Shown here: piece by piece, positions 4,257 to 28,146 of the stretch
Numbering within the stretch: position 1 is the stretch's first letter
Layout of the letters: every line of letters starts with the position of its first letter
Assembly: GCA_020723165.1 (NCBI GenBank)
Contig: DYJK01000027.1
Location: 1-36,032 of the forward strand
DNA: 36,032 nucleotides
Origin: Melioribacter roseus
GTDB taxonomy: Bacteria > Bacteroidota > Ignavibacteria > Ignavibacteriales > Melioribacteraceae
Reading direction: 5' to 3'
The notes under the pieces: model-generated
The model's input: only the letters and a program-made list of their open reading frames with translations
Told to the model about the DNA's origin: nothing
Database searches by the model: none
Program-made: the position numbers and the translations under genes

Positions 4257-5603
4257 TTAATTCCGTATAAAATTCAACAACTCATCCGTCTTTGCTTGCA
4301 TAAGTTTTTCATCGTTTCTCGCTTCAACATTGAGGCGGATGAGCGGTTCTGTATTGCTCATCCTAACGTTGAACCGCCAATCGGGATATTCAACACTCAC
4401 ACCGTCGAGCTCGCTGATTATTCCGTCCGAATATTTTTCTTTTATTGCATTTATTTTGCCAGCCGGATCGGCAATTGTGGAATTGATTTCGCCCGAACAC
4501 GGATATGCTTTCACCATTTCGCCGACAAGTTCGGAAAGTTTTGCATTTTGATCGGACATTAATTGAAGAATAAGCACAAAAGGAATCAGCCCGCTGTCGG
4601 AATAAAAATTATCACGGAAGTAATGGTGCGCAGACATTTCTCCGCCGTAGATTGCGTTTACTTCTCTCATTTTTTGTTTGATGAATGCGTGTCCGCTTTT
4701 TGAAAGGACTGCTTTGCCGTTTGCTTGTTCTACTTCTTCAATCGTATTCCATGTTAAGCGCGGATCGTGAATAATTTTTTCGCCCGGACTTGCTTTGAGA
4801 ATTGATTTTGCAAGCAGTGCAACAATGTAATACCCTTCGATAAAATTTCCTTCTTCATCAAAAAAGAAACAACGGTCGTAATCGCCGTCCCACGCAACAC
4901 CGAGATCTGCATTATGTTTTTTAATTGCATCTATTGTCGGCTGTCTGTTTTCAGGCAGCAACGGATTCGGAACACCGTTCGGAAAATTGGAATCCGGTTC
5001 GTGGAAAACTTTTATCAATTGTACCGGTAGAAATTTTTCAAGAACATCGAGTGCCGGTCCAACGCATCCGTTGCCGGCGTTAACAACAACTTTGAACGGT
5101 TTCATCTTATCTGCTTTGTAAAATTTTTGCAGACTATCGATGAACTCAACCATAATATCTTTACCGATAACTTTTCCTTTTTGAGCGGCAACTTCTCCGA
5201 GATCGTTTTGCAAAACCATCTTTTCGATTTCATTTAGCCCGGAATCGTAGCCCATCGGAACGGAACCTCTTTTTACAAATTTTAATCCGTTGTACTCCGG
5301 CGGATTGTGGCTTGCGGTAATCATCACGCCGCCGTCTGCATTCAAAAAAGGCGTGCCGAAATAAATCATTTCAGTTCCGCACAGACCGAGATCAAAAACA
5401 TCTGAGCCGGCATCGGTCAATCCTTTCGATAATGATTCGGCTAATTCAGGTGATGATTTGCGGACATCGCGCCCGATTACTACTGATTTGCATCCTAAAA
5501 ATTTTACAAGTGCTCTGCCGATTTTATAAGCAAGTTCTGCATTTAATTCGGATGGTACTTTCCCGCGTATATCGTACGCCTTAAAGGAAGAAATTTTATC
5601 CAT
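4257..5603 (-). CDS. manB: Phosphomannomutase / phosphoglucomutase
   Basis: Alpha-D-phosphohexomutase that interconverts hexose 1- and 6-phosphates, supplying mannose-1-P or glucose-1-P for nucleotide sugars and envelope glycans in the cytoplasm. 448 aa, the usual length. All four active-site segments are present: the phosphoserine loop TASHNPP with S98, the Mg site DGDYDR (D239, D241, D243), the sugar-specificity loop GEMSAHH (321-327), and the C-terminal phosphate loop SNTEPLIR (about 416-423). The FKAYDIRG opening and the GEMSAHH loop match the ManB/AlgC/CpsG type rather than GlmM. The region before the ATG (GGGAAAAAAGT) is a weak ribosome site. Substrate preference between mannose and glucose cannot be read from the sequence. 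Confidence 0.93.
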   Translation of the reverse strand: MDKISSFKAYDIRGKVPSELNAELAYKIGRALVKFLGCKSVVIGRDVRKSSPELAESLSKGLTDAGSDVFDLGLCGTEMIYFGTPFLNADGGVMITASHNPPEYNGLKFVKRGSVPMGYDSGLNEIEKMVLQNDLGEVAAQKGKVIGKDIMVEFIDSLQKFYKADKMKPFKVVVNAGNGCVGPALDVLEKFLPVQLIKVFHEPDSNFPNGVPNPLLPENRQPTIDAIKKHNADLGVAWDGDYDRCFFFDEEGNFIEGYYIVALLAKSILKASPGEKIIHDPRLTWNTIEEVEQANGKAVLSKSGHAFIKQKMREVNAIYGGEMSAHHYFRDNFYSDSGLIPFVLILQLMSDQNAKLSELVGEMVKAYPCSGEINSTIADPAGKINAIKEKYSDGIISELDGVSVEYPDWRFNVRMSNTEPLIRLNVEARNDEKLMQAKTDELLNFIRN

Positions 5604-5691
5604 ACTTTTTTCCCGGATTTTTGTTCATTAATCCCGGCAAAGATAAGAATTTCGAAATAATTAATCGGGAGGTACTGTATTAATTTTTGCA

Positions 5692-5720
5692 TAGACAGAA
5701 ACATTTCCAACTGCTATATT
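5692..5720 (+). promoter_or_regulatory. Sigma-70-like promoter for the zinc-ribbon gene
   Basis: TAGACA (5692-5697) and TATATT (5715-5720) each match the housekeeping -35 and -10 consensus at five of six positions and are separated by exactly 17 bases. Transcription would start near 5727-5730, a few bases before the GGGAGG ribosome site at 5737-5742. This supports the CDS at 5748 as a transcribed unit and argues against a start upstream of the promoter. Confidence 0.5.
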
Positions 5721-5747
5721 GCAGATACTTTTCTAAGGGAGGTTGAT

Positions 5748-6068
5748 ATCGAATCCAGTTCTACTGTTACGCATAAAAATAATTTAAAGTTTGCCCAGTG
5801 CAGCAATTCTAGATGCCAGTCAGTATTTATTTATGACATTTCAAAGAAATTTGTTGATACAAACTTTTTATGCCCGGAATGCCATGATAAATTACATACC
5901 CATCACATAGTTCAATGTAGTTATTGCCAGTCAATAATTAATTTCATAAAGGTTGAAGAGGGGGAAGAACCGGTTGTGTTTTATGTAAACAAATGCCATC
6001 ATTGTCACGGTTCTTTTGAAGATGAAAGAAGATTGCAGCCGTTTATTTATCCCGAACTTTTTATATGA
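5748..6068 (+). CDS. Double zinc-ribbon protein with a non-canonical start
   Basis: A 106-codon frame ending in TGA at 6066-6068. It carries four cysteine knuckles: C18-x4-C23 with C42-x2-C45 (CPEC), and C57-x2-C60 (CSYC) with C83-x2-C86 (CHHC), with numbering from 5748. This pattern predicts two zinc ribbons in a row, joined by a His-rich linker (HTHH). No ATG, GTG or TTG lies in frame near the 5' end. The only well-placed signal is AAGGGAGG (5735-5742) five bases before an ATC codon at 5748, so an ATC start is proposed. The alternatives are an ATT at about 5680 behind another GGGAGG, or a single-base sequence error near 5745. Between divergent manB and the S46 gene, with its own promoter. 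Zinc ribbons of this kind often bind nucleic acid or protein; the actual function is unknown. Confidence 0.7.
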   Translation: MESSSTVTHKNNLKFAQCSNSRCQSVFIYDISKKFVDTNFLCPECHDKLHTHHIVQCSYCQSIINFIKVEEGEEPVVFYVNKCHHCHGSFEDERRLQPFIYPELFI

Positions 6069-6180: not shown

Positions 6181-8310
6181 ATGAAAAAAATATTTTCGAA
6201 TTACAGATTATTAGTTTTTGCGGTAATAATATTTTCGATCAGTGTCAGTGCACAAAGCAAATTTGATCCTGATACAGTAAAAGCCCAAAAATTTGATACC
6301 GGTAAGATGTGGTCTTTCGATTATCCGCCTACTGAATATTTTAATGAAACATACGGTTTTGAAGCAACACAAGAGTGGTTCGATGATGTTCGTTTATCGG
6401 CACTGCGTGTGCCAGGATGCACTTCTTCATTCCAATCTGAAGATGGGTTGATGATGACAAACTACCATTGCGCAGAAGGGTTGGTAAAGAAAGTACAAAA
6501 AGAAGGTGAAGATTTAGTTACCAACGGCTTCTTTGCTAAAACCCTTGCAGAAGAAAGAAAAATTCCTGATTACTATACCGAACAATTAGTATTCATCAAA
6601 GATGTTACCCAGGAAATCAAATCAGCTGTTGATACTGCTAAAACAAATGAAGCAAAAATCAAATTAAGAGAAGAAAAATCGAAACAACTGGTTGAGCAAT
6701 ACAATAAAGAAACCGGTCTTAGTTGCCAATTCATTTCTTTGTTCAACGGCGGTAAGTTTTCTATTTATGGTTATAAGAGATATGATGATGTTCGTTTAGT
6801 ATTCGCCCCGGAATATCAAGCTGCTTTCTTTGGTGGCGATTATGATAATTTTACATATCCGCGTTACAATTTAGACTGTGCTTTCCTACGTGCTTATGAA
6901 AACGATAAACCGGTTAAAGCTGCAAATTATTTTAAATGGACAACAGACGGTATTAAACCCGGCGAGCCAATATTTACTGTTGGTAATCCCGGTTATACTC
7001 AAAGATTAAAAACTATTGCCTTCCTTGAATATACAAGAGACATTACTTATAAAAATCTTTCTTTTCAATACGATAACTTATTTAACGAATTAGAACGTCT
7101 TAAATCAGTTAATCCTTCTATGAAAGATAATTACGAAAAGATTAGAAGACGTATCGGCAATGCTCAAAAAGTTTATCATCAAGTTTATAAAGGTTTGACC
7201 GATCCATATCTTTTTGCTAGAAAGAAAGCTTTCCAAAAAGAGATTCAGGAAAAAGTATGGAATGACAGCGAATTGAAAGAACAGTATAGTTCTATCTGGG
7301 AAAATATTGAAAAAACTAGGGCCGAAATGAAAAAGGTTGGACCAAAATATGGGGCTTATACGTTGAATAATATTTTCAGTTCAAAATACTTTTTTATTGC
7401 CAAGAGTCTTGTTGAACTTGCCGGGCAGCTACAGAAACCGGAAGATCAGAGAGAATCAAAATTTAAAGCAGACAAATTAGATTCTACAATCAATGCGATA
7501 TACCCGGCAGACTTTGATAAATATTTAGAAGATACAAAACTCTGGATACAAGCGGATTTAATAAGGATGAATCTTGGCGATGATGATCCTATTGTAAAGA
7601 AACTTTTTGGTGATAATAAAGGAAAAGAGGCAGCAGAGTTTATTTTAGGAAATTCAGTTATAGATGATGTGGATGATATGATCGATCTTGCTAAAGAAGG
7701 TGCAGATGCAATTATGAATTCAGACGATCCGTTTATTTACTTCATAAAAGAAACGCAAGATAAAATACCCGGGTTTCAAAAACTTACAAAGGAAATAGCA
7801 TCAACCGAACAAGTTTATGATGATATGCTTGGACAAGTAGTGTTTAAAATTTATGGAACATCAATTCCACCGGATGCGAACTTCACTTTAAGAATCAGCG
7901 ATGGTGTTCTAAAAAGTTTTGATTACAACGGTACAATAGCCCCGACCGTTACAACTTTCCATGGAATGTATGACAGATATTATTCCTTCAATAAAGAATA
8001 TCCATGGAATTTACCAGATAGATGGGAAGACCCGGACGTTCTTGATCTTAGCACCCCGTTCAATTTTACATCTACTAATGATATAGTTGGCGGAAATTCC
8101 GGCAGCCCGGTAATTAACAAAAATGCAGAAGTAGTTGGATTGGCATTTGATGGTAATATGGAAAGCATTTATGGTAATTTTATTTTTATGCCGCACAACA
8201 ACAGATGTGTCTCTGTAGATGTACGCGGAATGATGGAAGCTTTTGAAGAAGTGTTCGATGCTGATCGGCTTGTTGAGGAATTGAAAGAAGGTAAGTTACC
8301 AAAGGAATAA
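6181..8310 (+). CDS. S46 family dipeptidyl-peptidase (DPP7-like), paralogue 1
   Basis: Serine peptidase of family S46, which releases dipeptides from the N-termini of oligopeptides in the periplasm of Bacteroidota and relatives. 709 aa, the usual length. It has a signal peptide (residues 1-25, ending SVSAQS), catalytic His96 in TNYHCAEG, the Asp segment GGDYDNFTYPR (D220/D222; D222 is the likely triad residue), and Ser640 in GGNSGSPV. In characterised enzymes the residue 18 after the serine sets specificity: Gly in DPP7 (hydrophobic P1) and Arg in DPP11 (acidic P1). Here it is Gly658 in AFDGN, so DPP7-like preference is inferred. AAGGTGA three bases before the ATG is the ribosome site. A strong terminator follows, so it is probably transcribed separately from its paralogue at 8466. 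Confidence 0.92.
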   Translation: MKKIFSNYRLLVFAVIIFSISVSAQSKFDPDTVKAQKFDTGKMWSFDYPPTEYFNETYGFEATQEWFDDVRLSALRVPGCTSSFQSEDGLMMTNYHCAEGLVKKVQKEGEDLVTNGFFAKTLAEERKIPDYYTEQLVFIKDVTQEIKSAVDTAKTNEAKIKLREEKSKQLVEQYNKETGLSCQFISLFNGGKFSIYGYKRYDDVRLVFAPEYQAAFFGGDYDNFTYPRYNLDCAFLRAYENDKPVKAANYFKWTTDGIKPGEPIFTVGNPGYTQRLKTIAFLEYTRDITYKNLSFQYDNLFNELERLKSVNPSMKDNYEKIRRRIGNAQKVYHQVYKGLTDPYLFARKKAFQKEIQEKVWNDSELKEQYSSIWENIEKTRAEMKKVGPKYGAYTLNNIFSSKYFFIAKSLVELAGQLQKPEDQRESKFKADKLDSTINAIYPADFDKYLEDTKLWIQADLIRMNLGDDDPIVKKLFGDNKGKEAAEFILGNSVIDDVDDMIDLAKEGADAIMNSDDPFIYFIKETQDKIPGFQKLTKEIASTEQVYDDMLGQVVFKIYGTSIPPDANFTLRISDGVLKSFDYNGTIAPTVTTFHGMYDRYYSFNKEYPWNLPDRWEDPDVLDLSTPFNFTSTNDIVGGNSGSPVINKNAEVVGLAFDGNMESIYGNFIFMPHNNRCVSVDVRGMMEAFEEVFDADRLVEELKEGKLPKE

Positions 8311-26033: not shown

Positions 26034-26049
26034 GGGGGAAAGAGATTAA

Positions 26050-28146
26050 ATGTTTGATAGATTAAATAAATTATTTATGGCAGATTCCGAAAATCCAAAA
26101 AATTCCAAGAAACCTTTTGGCAGCGGATCACAGAAACCAGATGGTGATTTCGATTGGTCGAAAATTATAAGAACTGTCTTTAGCTGGGGTGCTGTAATTA
26201 TTGTTGCTGTTATTATTATGCAGTTCATGCGTTCCGGTCAATCCAATTCTACCGAAATAGATTTTACTGTTTATGAAAAATTACTTGCCGATGGAAAAAT
26301 AACAGAAATTAAAATTGTTAAATCCGATGTTAACGATTACCGTATCGATGGAACTCTATCCGTAAAAGAGAAATTGCTTATTAACGGTAACTACGTAGAT
26401 GTTAAATCATTTTATGTAATCTTTGATCAATCGTTGATTAATGAAAGTATTAAGATATGGAAAGAGAAGAATATAAACTTCACGTTTGTTAAAGAATCGA
26501 ATGAATGGCTTACAGTTCTTCTCGGATTTATCCCGTGGGTAATAATATTTGCGGTTTGGATTCTACTTTTCCGCAGAATGCAAGCTGGTGCCGGCGGAAC
26601 ACGCGGTATTTTTAATTTCGGTAAAAGTAAAGCAAAATTAATTTCAGAATCGGCAACAAAAGTTACATTTAAAGATGTTGCCGGTGCAGATGAAGCAAAA
26701 CAAGAACTCGAAGAGATAATAGAATTTTTACGCGAGCCAAGTAAGTTTCAAAAGTTAGGCGGAAAAATTCCCCGTGGTGTTTTGTTGTTAGGTCCTCCAG
26801 GAACCGGTAAAACATTGTTGGCACGCGCAGTTGCCGGTGAAGCCGGTGTTCCGTTCTTCTCAATTTCCGGTGCTGACTTTGTTGAAATGTTTGTTGGCGT
26901 TGGTGCAAGCCGTGTACGCGATCTTTTTGAACAAGGTAAGAAAAATGCACCATGTATAATTTTTATTGATGAAATTGATGCTGTCGGTCGTCATCGCGGT
27001 GCCGGACTTGGCGGCGGACATGATGAACGCGAACAAACACTAAATCAATTATTAGTTGAGATGGATGGATTCGAACAAAACAGCGGTGTGATTATTATTG
27101 CAGCTACAAACCGTCCCGATGTTTTAGACCCGGCATTGTTAAGACCCGGCAGATTTGACCGCCAGGTTGTTGTTGATCGTCCCGATGTTAAAGGTAGGGA
27201 AGGAATTCTTAAAGTTCATACAAGAAAAATTCCGCTCGATACCGATGTTGAATTAGCAGTATTGGCAAAAGGTACACCGGGGTTAGCCGGTGCTGAACTT
27301 GCCAACATGGTTAATGAAGCTGCGCTTTTAGCTGCCCGTAAAAATAAAAAGAAAGTTTCGATGGAGGATTTTGAAGAATCAAAAGATAAAGTGATGATGG
27401 GTATGGAACGTAAGAGTATGATAATATCCGAGGAAGAGAAAAAAGTAACTGCTTATCATGAGATCGGTCATGTACTAGTTGCAAAAATGCTTCCCGAAGC
27501 AGACCCGGTTCATAAAGTAACAATCATCCCTCGCGGTAGGGCACTTGGTGTTACAACATATCTGCCGGTAGACGAAAAGCATACCTACTCTAAAGATTAT
27601 TTGGAAGCAATGATTACTTATGCACTGGGCGGCAGAGCGGCTGAGAAAATCATATTCAACAAATTTACTACCGGTGCCGGTAATGATATTGAAAAATCTA
27701 CTAACATTGCTCGCAAGATGGTTTGTGAATGGGGCATGAGTGAAAAATTAGGTCCGCTTGCCTATGGAACAAGAGAAGAAGAAATTTTCTTAGGACGTGA
27801 GATTACAAAACATAAAGATTACAGCGAACAAACTGCCGAGGATATTGATAACGAAGTAAAATCAATTGTATCTGGCTGCATGGTAAGGGCAGAAAAAGTT
27901 TTAAAAGATAATATTGAATTCCTTCATAAATTATCCAAAGAGTTATTGGAACGGGAAATTCTTGATTCGGATGAAATAGATAAGATAATTAAGGGGGAAG
28001 AACTTCCACCTCTTAAACGTAACGGTTCCGAATCGGACAAAAAAAATAATGCTGAAGCCGTTCCGGATCATGTAAAAAAAATGTTAGAAGATAGACAAAA
28101 AAGAGATTCTGTAAAGCACGCTGAAAAGGCAGATGGTAGCAACTGA
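26050..28146 (+). CDS. ftsH: ATP-dependent zinc metalloprotease FtsH
   Basis: Hexameric membrane AAA protease for quality control of membrane and short-lived cytoplasmic proteins. 698 aa. Two membrane segments flank a periplasmic loop (about 38-58 and 156-174). Walker A is GPPGTGKT at 248-255, Walker [12 protein letters not shown] region [19 protein letters not shown]. The zinc site is HEIGH at 470-474, where most FtsH have HEAGH, with the third ligand D546 in [10 protein letters not shown]. The N-terminus has a short hydrophilic extension before the first membrane helix (about 35 aa, [10 protein letters not shown]), and a charged tail ends the protein. It overlaps the kinase gene by 14 bases. 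Confidence 0.96.

Follow-up and report, generated by a model that had tools for sequence, protein, structure and literature searches.

Within the window, the whole stretch of 36,032 nucleotides of Melioribacter roseus DNA analysed here, one open frame on the forward strand raises the question of where its translation begins. The frame read from position 5748 encodes a double zinc-ribbon protein with the cysteine pairs CSNSRC, CPEC, CSYC, and CHHC (cysteines at residues 18, 23, 42, 45, 57, 60, 83, and 86) and an acidic stretch near its C-terminal end, and the gene is single-copy in the genome. After the in-frame upstream stop at 5658, ATG, GTG, or TTG occur in this frame only at GTG 5976 (residue 77) and TTG 6033 (residue 96), and the first of these comes after six of the eight cysteines. 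Among 27 non-overlapping frames of the window with at least 120 aa, it is the sole one without any of the three codons in its first third. A preliminary description made from sequence alone had claimed real coding at 5748 from the eight paired cysteines, the absence of a standard in-frame start ahead of them, and a Shine–Dalgarno (SD) sequence five bases ahead of an ATC. All three claims held, all eight cysteines being invariant in an alignment of 46 members of the family, and the reading of the ATC as the start is supported by the start codons of the homologues. The features of the locus are collected in Table 1.

Table 1. Features of the zinc-ribbon locus (positions in the window).
Feature	Position	Strand	Remarks
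Divergent phosphoglucomutase/phosphomannomutase gene	4257..5603	-	Pfam PGM_PMM domains
Conserved promoter box TTTTTGCATAG, -33-like	5684..5694	+	Upstream of most of the 46 homologues (by eye)
TAnnTTTG-like -7 box TATATTGC	5715..5722	+	Similar boxes at the equivalent place in homologues (by eye)
Shine–Dalgarno AAGGGAGG	5735..5742	+	Five bases (TTGAT) before the ATC; pairing energy -12.0 kcal/mol
Double zinc-ribbon protein gene	5748..6068	+	106 codons (5748-6065) and TGA (6066-6068)
Start codon ATC	5748..5750	+	AUH at the matching site in homologues
UAC element, +15 to +17 from the start	5762..5764	+	TAC in 60/67 and 37/37 named loci
Peptidase S46 gene, downstream	6181..8310	+	Pfam Peptidase_S46

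Searches for homologues of the zinc-ribbon gene gave matches in 55 of 79 genomes for the family, in 48 of 58 for a mixed set of relatives, in 36 of 197 for the class, and in 26 of 296 for the phylum; these sets overlap, and in the class and phylum sets the matches from outside the order came from just one family of the class. A hand tally over the family, mixed-relative, and class sets gives 84 different genomes with a homologue. The 46-locus set comprises the best-scoring homologues (the closest relatives) from the family and mixed-relative searches, the start codon not being a criterion, and the 67-locus set adds 21 more, whose starts were assigned by eye. In addition, 37 named loci, mostly MAGs titled Ignavibacteriales, Ignavibacteriota, Ignavibacteriaceae, Ignavibacterium, or only Bacteroidetes (e.g. 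CP053447.1 and CP070637.1), share 75–98% identity with one query, one locus being partial; they are not independent, because they are close relatives of that query and at least five seem to be shared with the other genome set. The surroundings of the gene are also conserved. In the window, it sits between the divergent mutase gene and two peptidase S46 genes; the sugar-phosphate mutase lies beside it in the same divergent orientation in 81 of 83 loci, and in 65 of 83 a peptidase S46 relative follows on the strand of the zinc-ribbon gene.

At the site matching the ATC, AUC, AUA, or AUU (collectively AUH) stands behind an SD sequence in all 46 best-scoring homologues, 13 codons ahead of the first cysteine in 39 of them and 10 to 17 codons ahead in the others; where two AUH codons adjoin, the one fitting the alignment was taken as the start. 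ATC is the start in 37 of 37 named loci, and an intact gene with AUH occurs in 67 of the 84 genomes (43 ATC, 19 ATA, and 5 ATT). The comparison of N-termini and start codons proposed in the preliminary description therefore favours AUH, and an ATG at the matching site, named there as a refuting observation, is met in one genus (five genomes), perhaps in genome G094, and nowhere else. The divergent mutase served as a control: 5 of 104 loci lack the motif, and of the 99 that have it, 96 begin the mutase with ATG at a single fixed position.

The exceptions fall among the lower-scoring homologues, outside the 46-locus set. The 17 genomes not counted as intact with AUH are the five of genus g2, with an ATG start; six of family f13, with a TTG start judged by SD position, five of which also carry an ATG two codons ahead of the first cysteine; two of genus g26, whose start is short and TTG-like, with an internal stop in one of them; G086 and G099, where the reading of the start is ambiguous; and G094 and G028, described next. 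AUH is thus not indispensable and can be lost, since one genus uses ATG and one family TTG. In G094 (L100), the in-frame ATG that serves as the start directly follows an ATCGAA lying out of frame, which might capture a change from AUH to AUG in progress, if it is not an indel error. Broken copies were also observed, one in G050 (L112) and one in G028 (L116), the latter with a frameshift and a stop, yet with its SD and ATC intact. Taken over all homologues, the zinc-ribbon gene is in all likelihood genuine and begins at AUC; initiation at this codon with fMet is inferred, in the absence of expression data.

The SD sequence of the zinc-ribbon gene in the window pairs at -12.0 kcal/mol, against an average of -3.3 kcal/mol for 25 other frames of the window, each taken at its first ATG or, in one case, at a TTG. 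Among those other frames, the strongest SD (-11.3 kcal/mol) belongs to 26049-28143 on the forward strand. All 67 loci and 34 of 37 named loci have an SD core within 16 nt of their AUH, and the gap between core and AUH is 4–6 nt in 42 of the 46 best-scoring homologues. Over 104 zinc-ribbon loci the mean energy is -8.8 kcal/mol, compared with -6.5 kcal/mol at 96 neighbour starts, and 91% of the zinc-ribbon loci versus 74% of the neighbour starts reach -6 or below. The SDs of the neighbour are decent too, and a quarter of the zinc-ribbon loci, at -6.4 or weaker, are no better than the neighbour median.

Upstream of the SD, the conserved pair TTTTTGCATAG and TATATTGC is taken to be a Bacteroidota-like promoter. 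A looser form of the first box, TTTnCATnn, is found in 51 of 67 loci, in 49 of these at 57–71 bases ahead of the AUH, and the position of the TAnnTTTG-like box implies a leader of about 20–25 nt for the zinc-ribbon mRNA. The sigma-70-like promoter described previously (TAGACA-17-TATATT) fared less well: its hexamers are present, but such matches are no rarer in shuffled sequences (3 found, 3.2 expected), and the reading is better replaced by the conserved Bacteroidota-like promoter, as recognized by eye. Eight exact copies of TTTTTGCATAG occur in the genome and none of the reversed pattern; five of the seven copies elsewhere fall within open frames of 324–587 codons. As a genome-wide regulon box it was rejected, no other copy showing a promoter and SD context. 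Furthermore, RNAalifold on 46 start-anchored sequences from -28 to +30 gave no conserved pair, and a hairpin hiding the SD was also rejected, the mean folding energy (-5.8) not being below that of shuffles (-6.4).

Retention of AUH in most relatives across the order points to deliberate translational control of the zinc-ribbon gene. The best tree built from the 67 proteins requires at least 13 changes among C, A, and T in the last base of the start codon; none is to G, although AUG would be the best start. This evidence for selection against AUG is merely indicative, because AUH was the criterion for including the 67 rows, and good support is limited to 20 of the 62 inner branches, which by themselves require just three changes each for ATC and ATA.

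Downstream of the start, a UAC is anchored at +15 to +17. Codon 5 ends in T in 61 of 67 loci, against 34.8 expected from codon use elsewhere in the genes (z 7.0), although it specifies 11 different amino acids. The UAC is retained in six of the eight members whose distance from start to first cysteine is other than 13 codons. Codon 4 of the zinc-ribbon genes gives z 3.2 in the same third-base test, and the codon 5 controls show no effect (z 0.7 for the neighbour and 1.6 for infC). A z near 3 means little, because other control codons reach z 3.1, and relatedness among the loci inflates all of these values. Because codon 6 usually encodes Thr, the A and C may be driven by the protein, an explanation that is plainly ruled out only for the T. 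None of the 11 members from the ATG genus and the TTG family, with starts assigned by eye, has TAC at the equivalent position. No pairing partner for the UAC was found. The start-anchored UAC is described as a new element, its U exceeding the expectation from codon use, and as a candidate initiation element it is directly testable. Positions +15 to +17 are about where mRNA enters the 30S subunit. A bolder reading, offered only as a possibility in all its parts, would take the extended SD, AUH, 11 nt, and UAC as one composite initiation signal; the ribbon protein or the ribosome might read the UAC, licensing or repressing initiation at a codon that IF3 otherwise rejects, and the gene might be a second, non-infC, order-wide reporter of initiation fidelity.

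The protein itself remains without a close counterpart in the collections searched. Ten weak Pfam matches to the window protein were obtained, none over the curated cut-off and none at E 0.01, and NCBIfam gave no match at E 0.01. The generic Pfam zinc ribbons (DUF7129, DZR_2, and DnaJ_CXXCXGXG) likewise carry paired C-x2-C or C-x4-C motifs. DUF7129, the most frequent Pfam match, hits 5 of 46 members (best E 8.8e-5), whereas the window protein is unmatched at E 0.01. Among proteins of solved structure, the best sequence match (E 0.031) is not significant; Foldseek gave no match at E 0.001, and no Z of 2 or more was reached among 329 chains. The fold comparison is weak, because the structure model is modest (pLDDT 69.9, pTM 0.56). 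A double zinc ribbon with an acidic stretch could fit a regulator binding nucleic acid, polymerase, or ribosome, which is a guess. In the leading results of a search of the open-access literature, there was no paper on the zinc-ribbon gene and none for Ignavibacterium together with start codon.

The frame, the conserved AUH, the SD, the promoter box, the synteny, and the parallel with infC are shown. The explanation that suits them best, probable rather than proven in the absence of ribosome profiling, proteomics, or mRNA data, is an order-wide start discriminated by IF3 that throttles a small double zinc-ribbon protein. In such a mechanism, the gene's own promoter would drive expression of the protein of roughly 100 aa, and the extended SD would select AUC as its start, this initiation with fMet being inferred. 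As a poor start codon that, by inference, IF3 rejects, AUH would be maintained by selection throughout the order. Output would then be low and may rise when IF3 discrimination falls, as for infC, which is likewise an inference. The protein may be a low-abundance regulator whose dose tracks the translation state, and its binding to nucleic acid, ribosome, or RNA polymerase is a guess. IF3 repression of such starts has precedent in the results on sigR and infC (PMC5472188).

Among the rival explanations, autogenous control is unlikely, and it is compatible with IF3 discrimination rather than exclusive of it. In this alternative, translation does start at the AUH, the zinc-ribbon protein represses its own synthesis by binding the SD/AUH/UAC region, and IF3 is incidental. 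The excess of the start-anchored UAC over codon-use expectation speaks for it, as does the lack of UAC in all examined members of the ATG genus and TTG family; in general, RNA is often bound by zinc ribbons. Against it, there is no conserved RNA fold from -28 to +30, and the UAC is dispensable for AUH starts as such, because infC has AUH without UAC.

It is also improbable that a poor start simply keeps expression constitutively low, without response to IF3 or to the state of the cell. Some support comes from Staphylococcus reporters, in which non-canonical starts yielded roughly 10% of the output of AUG in poor medium (PMC13009471). For ccpN, the output reached up to 30% in rich medium (PMC13009471). 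However, a weaker SD would be a simpler means, yet the zinc-ribbon SDs are strong on average, and strong SDs also accompany sigR (PMC5472188) and cvfC1, ccpN, and infC of Staphylococcus (PMC13009471).

Very unlikely is a third alternative, in which the AUH merely encodes an internal Ile of a longer product with a normal upstream start, or is entered by a programmed frameshift. Some in-frame ATG, GTG, or TTG lies upstream in 33 of 67 loci, and in 15 of the 37 named loci and 12 of the 67 others a canonical codon that overlaps the SD stands in frame four codons 5' of the AUH, so a start at this place is conceivable in some members. Frameshifts are also known to be stimulated by SD-like sequences, as in prfB. 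On the other side, there is no such codon between the upstream stop and the AUH in 34 of 67 loci, the window included, and 32 of these 34 have none before the first cysteine either; in 18 of 67, a stop lies within seven codons upstream with no canonical start between. With the promoter box about 60 nt upstream, there is little room for a leader. An upstream in-frame start was rejected for the 34 loci without any and remains possible for some members. With respect to frameshifting, 33 of 67 loci have no out-of-frame frame that begins within 45 bases upstream and reads past the AUH; an out-of-frame ATG, GTG, or TTG at -5, the place of the TTG noted previously, opens a frame running past the AUH in 12 of 67 and no more. 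Programmed frameshifting was rejected for lack of a conserved out-of-frame frame, only starts within 45 bases being considered.

That the assembly is wrong here or the gene is decaying in this genome, as suggested by the earlier caution about a base error or frameshift at about 5745 with its preceding TTG and by the existence of the two broken copies, is all but excluded: the idea failed on the homologues, being refuted as a local accident because the arrangement is common to homologues of the same genus and of the whole order and recurs in the assemblies of dozens of species, with all eight cysteines invariant.

Under the preferred reading, an IF3-discriminated start, a family that holds AUH across most of an order while drifting among AUC, AUA, and AUU offers natural evidence of selection for a weak start as such. 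Genes are usually called only from ATG, GTG, or TTG, so genes with AUH starts are missed or given wrong N-termini. The zinc-ribbon gene and infC together hint at a small group of genes coupled to IF3 discrimination.

The closest known system is infC, whose AUH start mediates autocontrol of IF3 in E. coli (PMC5472188). In the lineages studied here, an SD with AUH is found in 43 of 45 infC loci (30 ATC, 8 ATT, and 5 ATA), read from 30 of 55 matches of one search and 15 of 17 of another, in the order and a sister family (L047-L076 and L189-L203). The two exceptions (L072 and L073) belong to one genus, where AUH is apparently lost, and in L062, L201, and L202 an in-frame canonical codon lies just upstream of the infC start, overlapping the SD. 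The infC AUH start is also present in the ATG genus and the TTG family of the zinc-ribbon gene. Second infC-like copies occur at G121:C70 and G148:C9, both in family f13. The zinc-ribbon gene is not infC itself, TIGR00168 (IF3) matching the genome only at C158. The two genes share an AUC, AUA, or AUU start after a purine-rich SD; the zinc-ribbon gene differs in that its product is not a translation factor, its promoter and synteny are its own, and it carries the UAC from +15. It meets the criteria of the infC-type class, namely no AUG, GUG, or UUG at the site, an AUH after an SD at normal spacing, and a start class conserved among orthologues (46/46, 37/37, and 67/84), with losses in one genus and one family. 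Because infC uses AUH in the same lineages, the zinc-ribbon gene is a second conserved user of this start class. The link to infC-type control drawn in the preliminary description is thereby supported by analogy and not by experiment.

Two further systems are comparable. Streptomyces sigR starts with GTC in 32 of 34 species and with GTT in the other two, and IF3 represses it (PMC5472188). Like the zinc-ribbon gene, it combines a conserved non-canonical start with an extended SD (AGGAGGTG in sigR), but the codon is GTC rather than AUH, the product is a sigma factor, and the arrangement concerns one genus. In Staphylococcus, AUH starts are used by infC (AUA), cvfC1 (AUU; 61 aa, a putative zinc finger), and ccpN (AUA), and extended SDs accompany conserved non-canonical starts (PMC13009471). 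Both cvfC1 and ccpN resemble the zinc-ribbon gene in their conserved AUH and extended SD, and cvfC1 in being a small putative zinc finger too, without any claim of homology; they differ in phylum, length, and operon. The zinc-ribbon gene is therefore of the same kind as infC, sigR, cvfC1, and ccpN, and what is new is the other phylum, the order-wide breadth, and the additional UAC.
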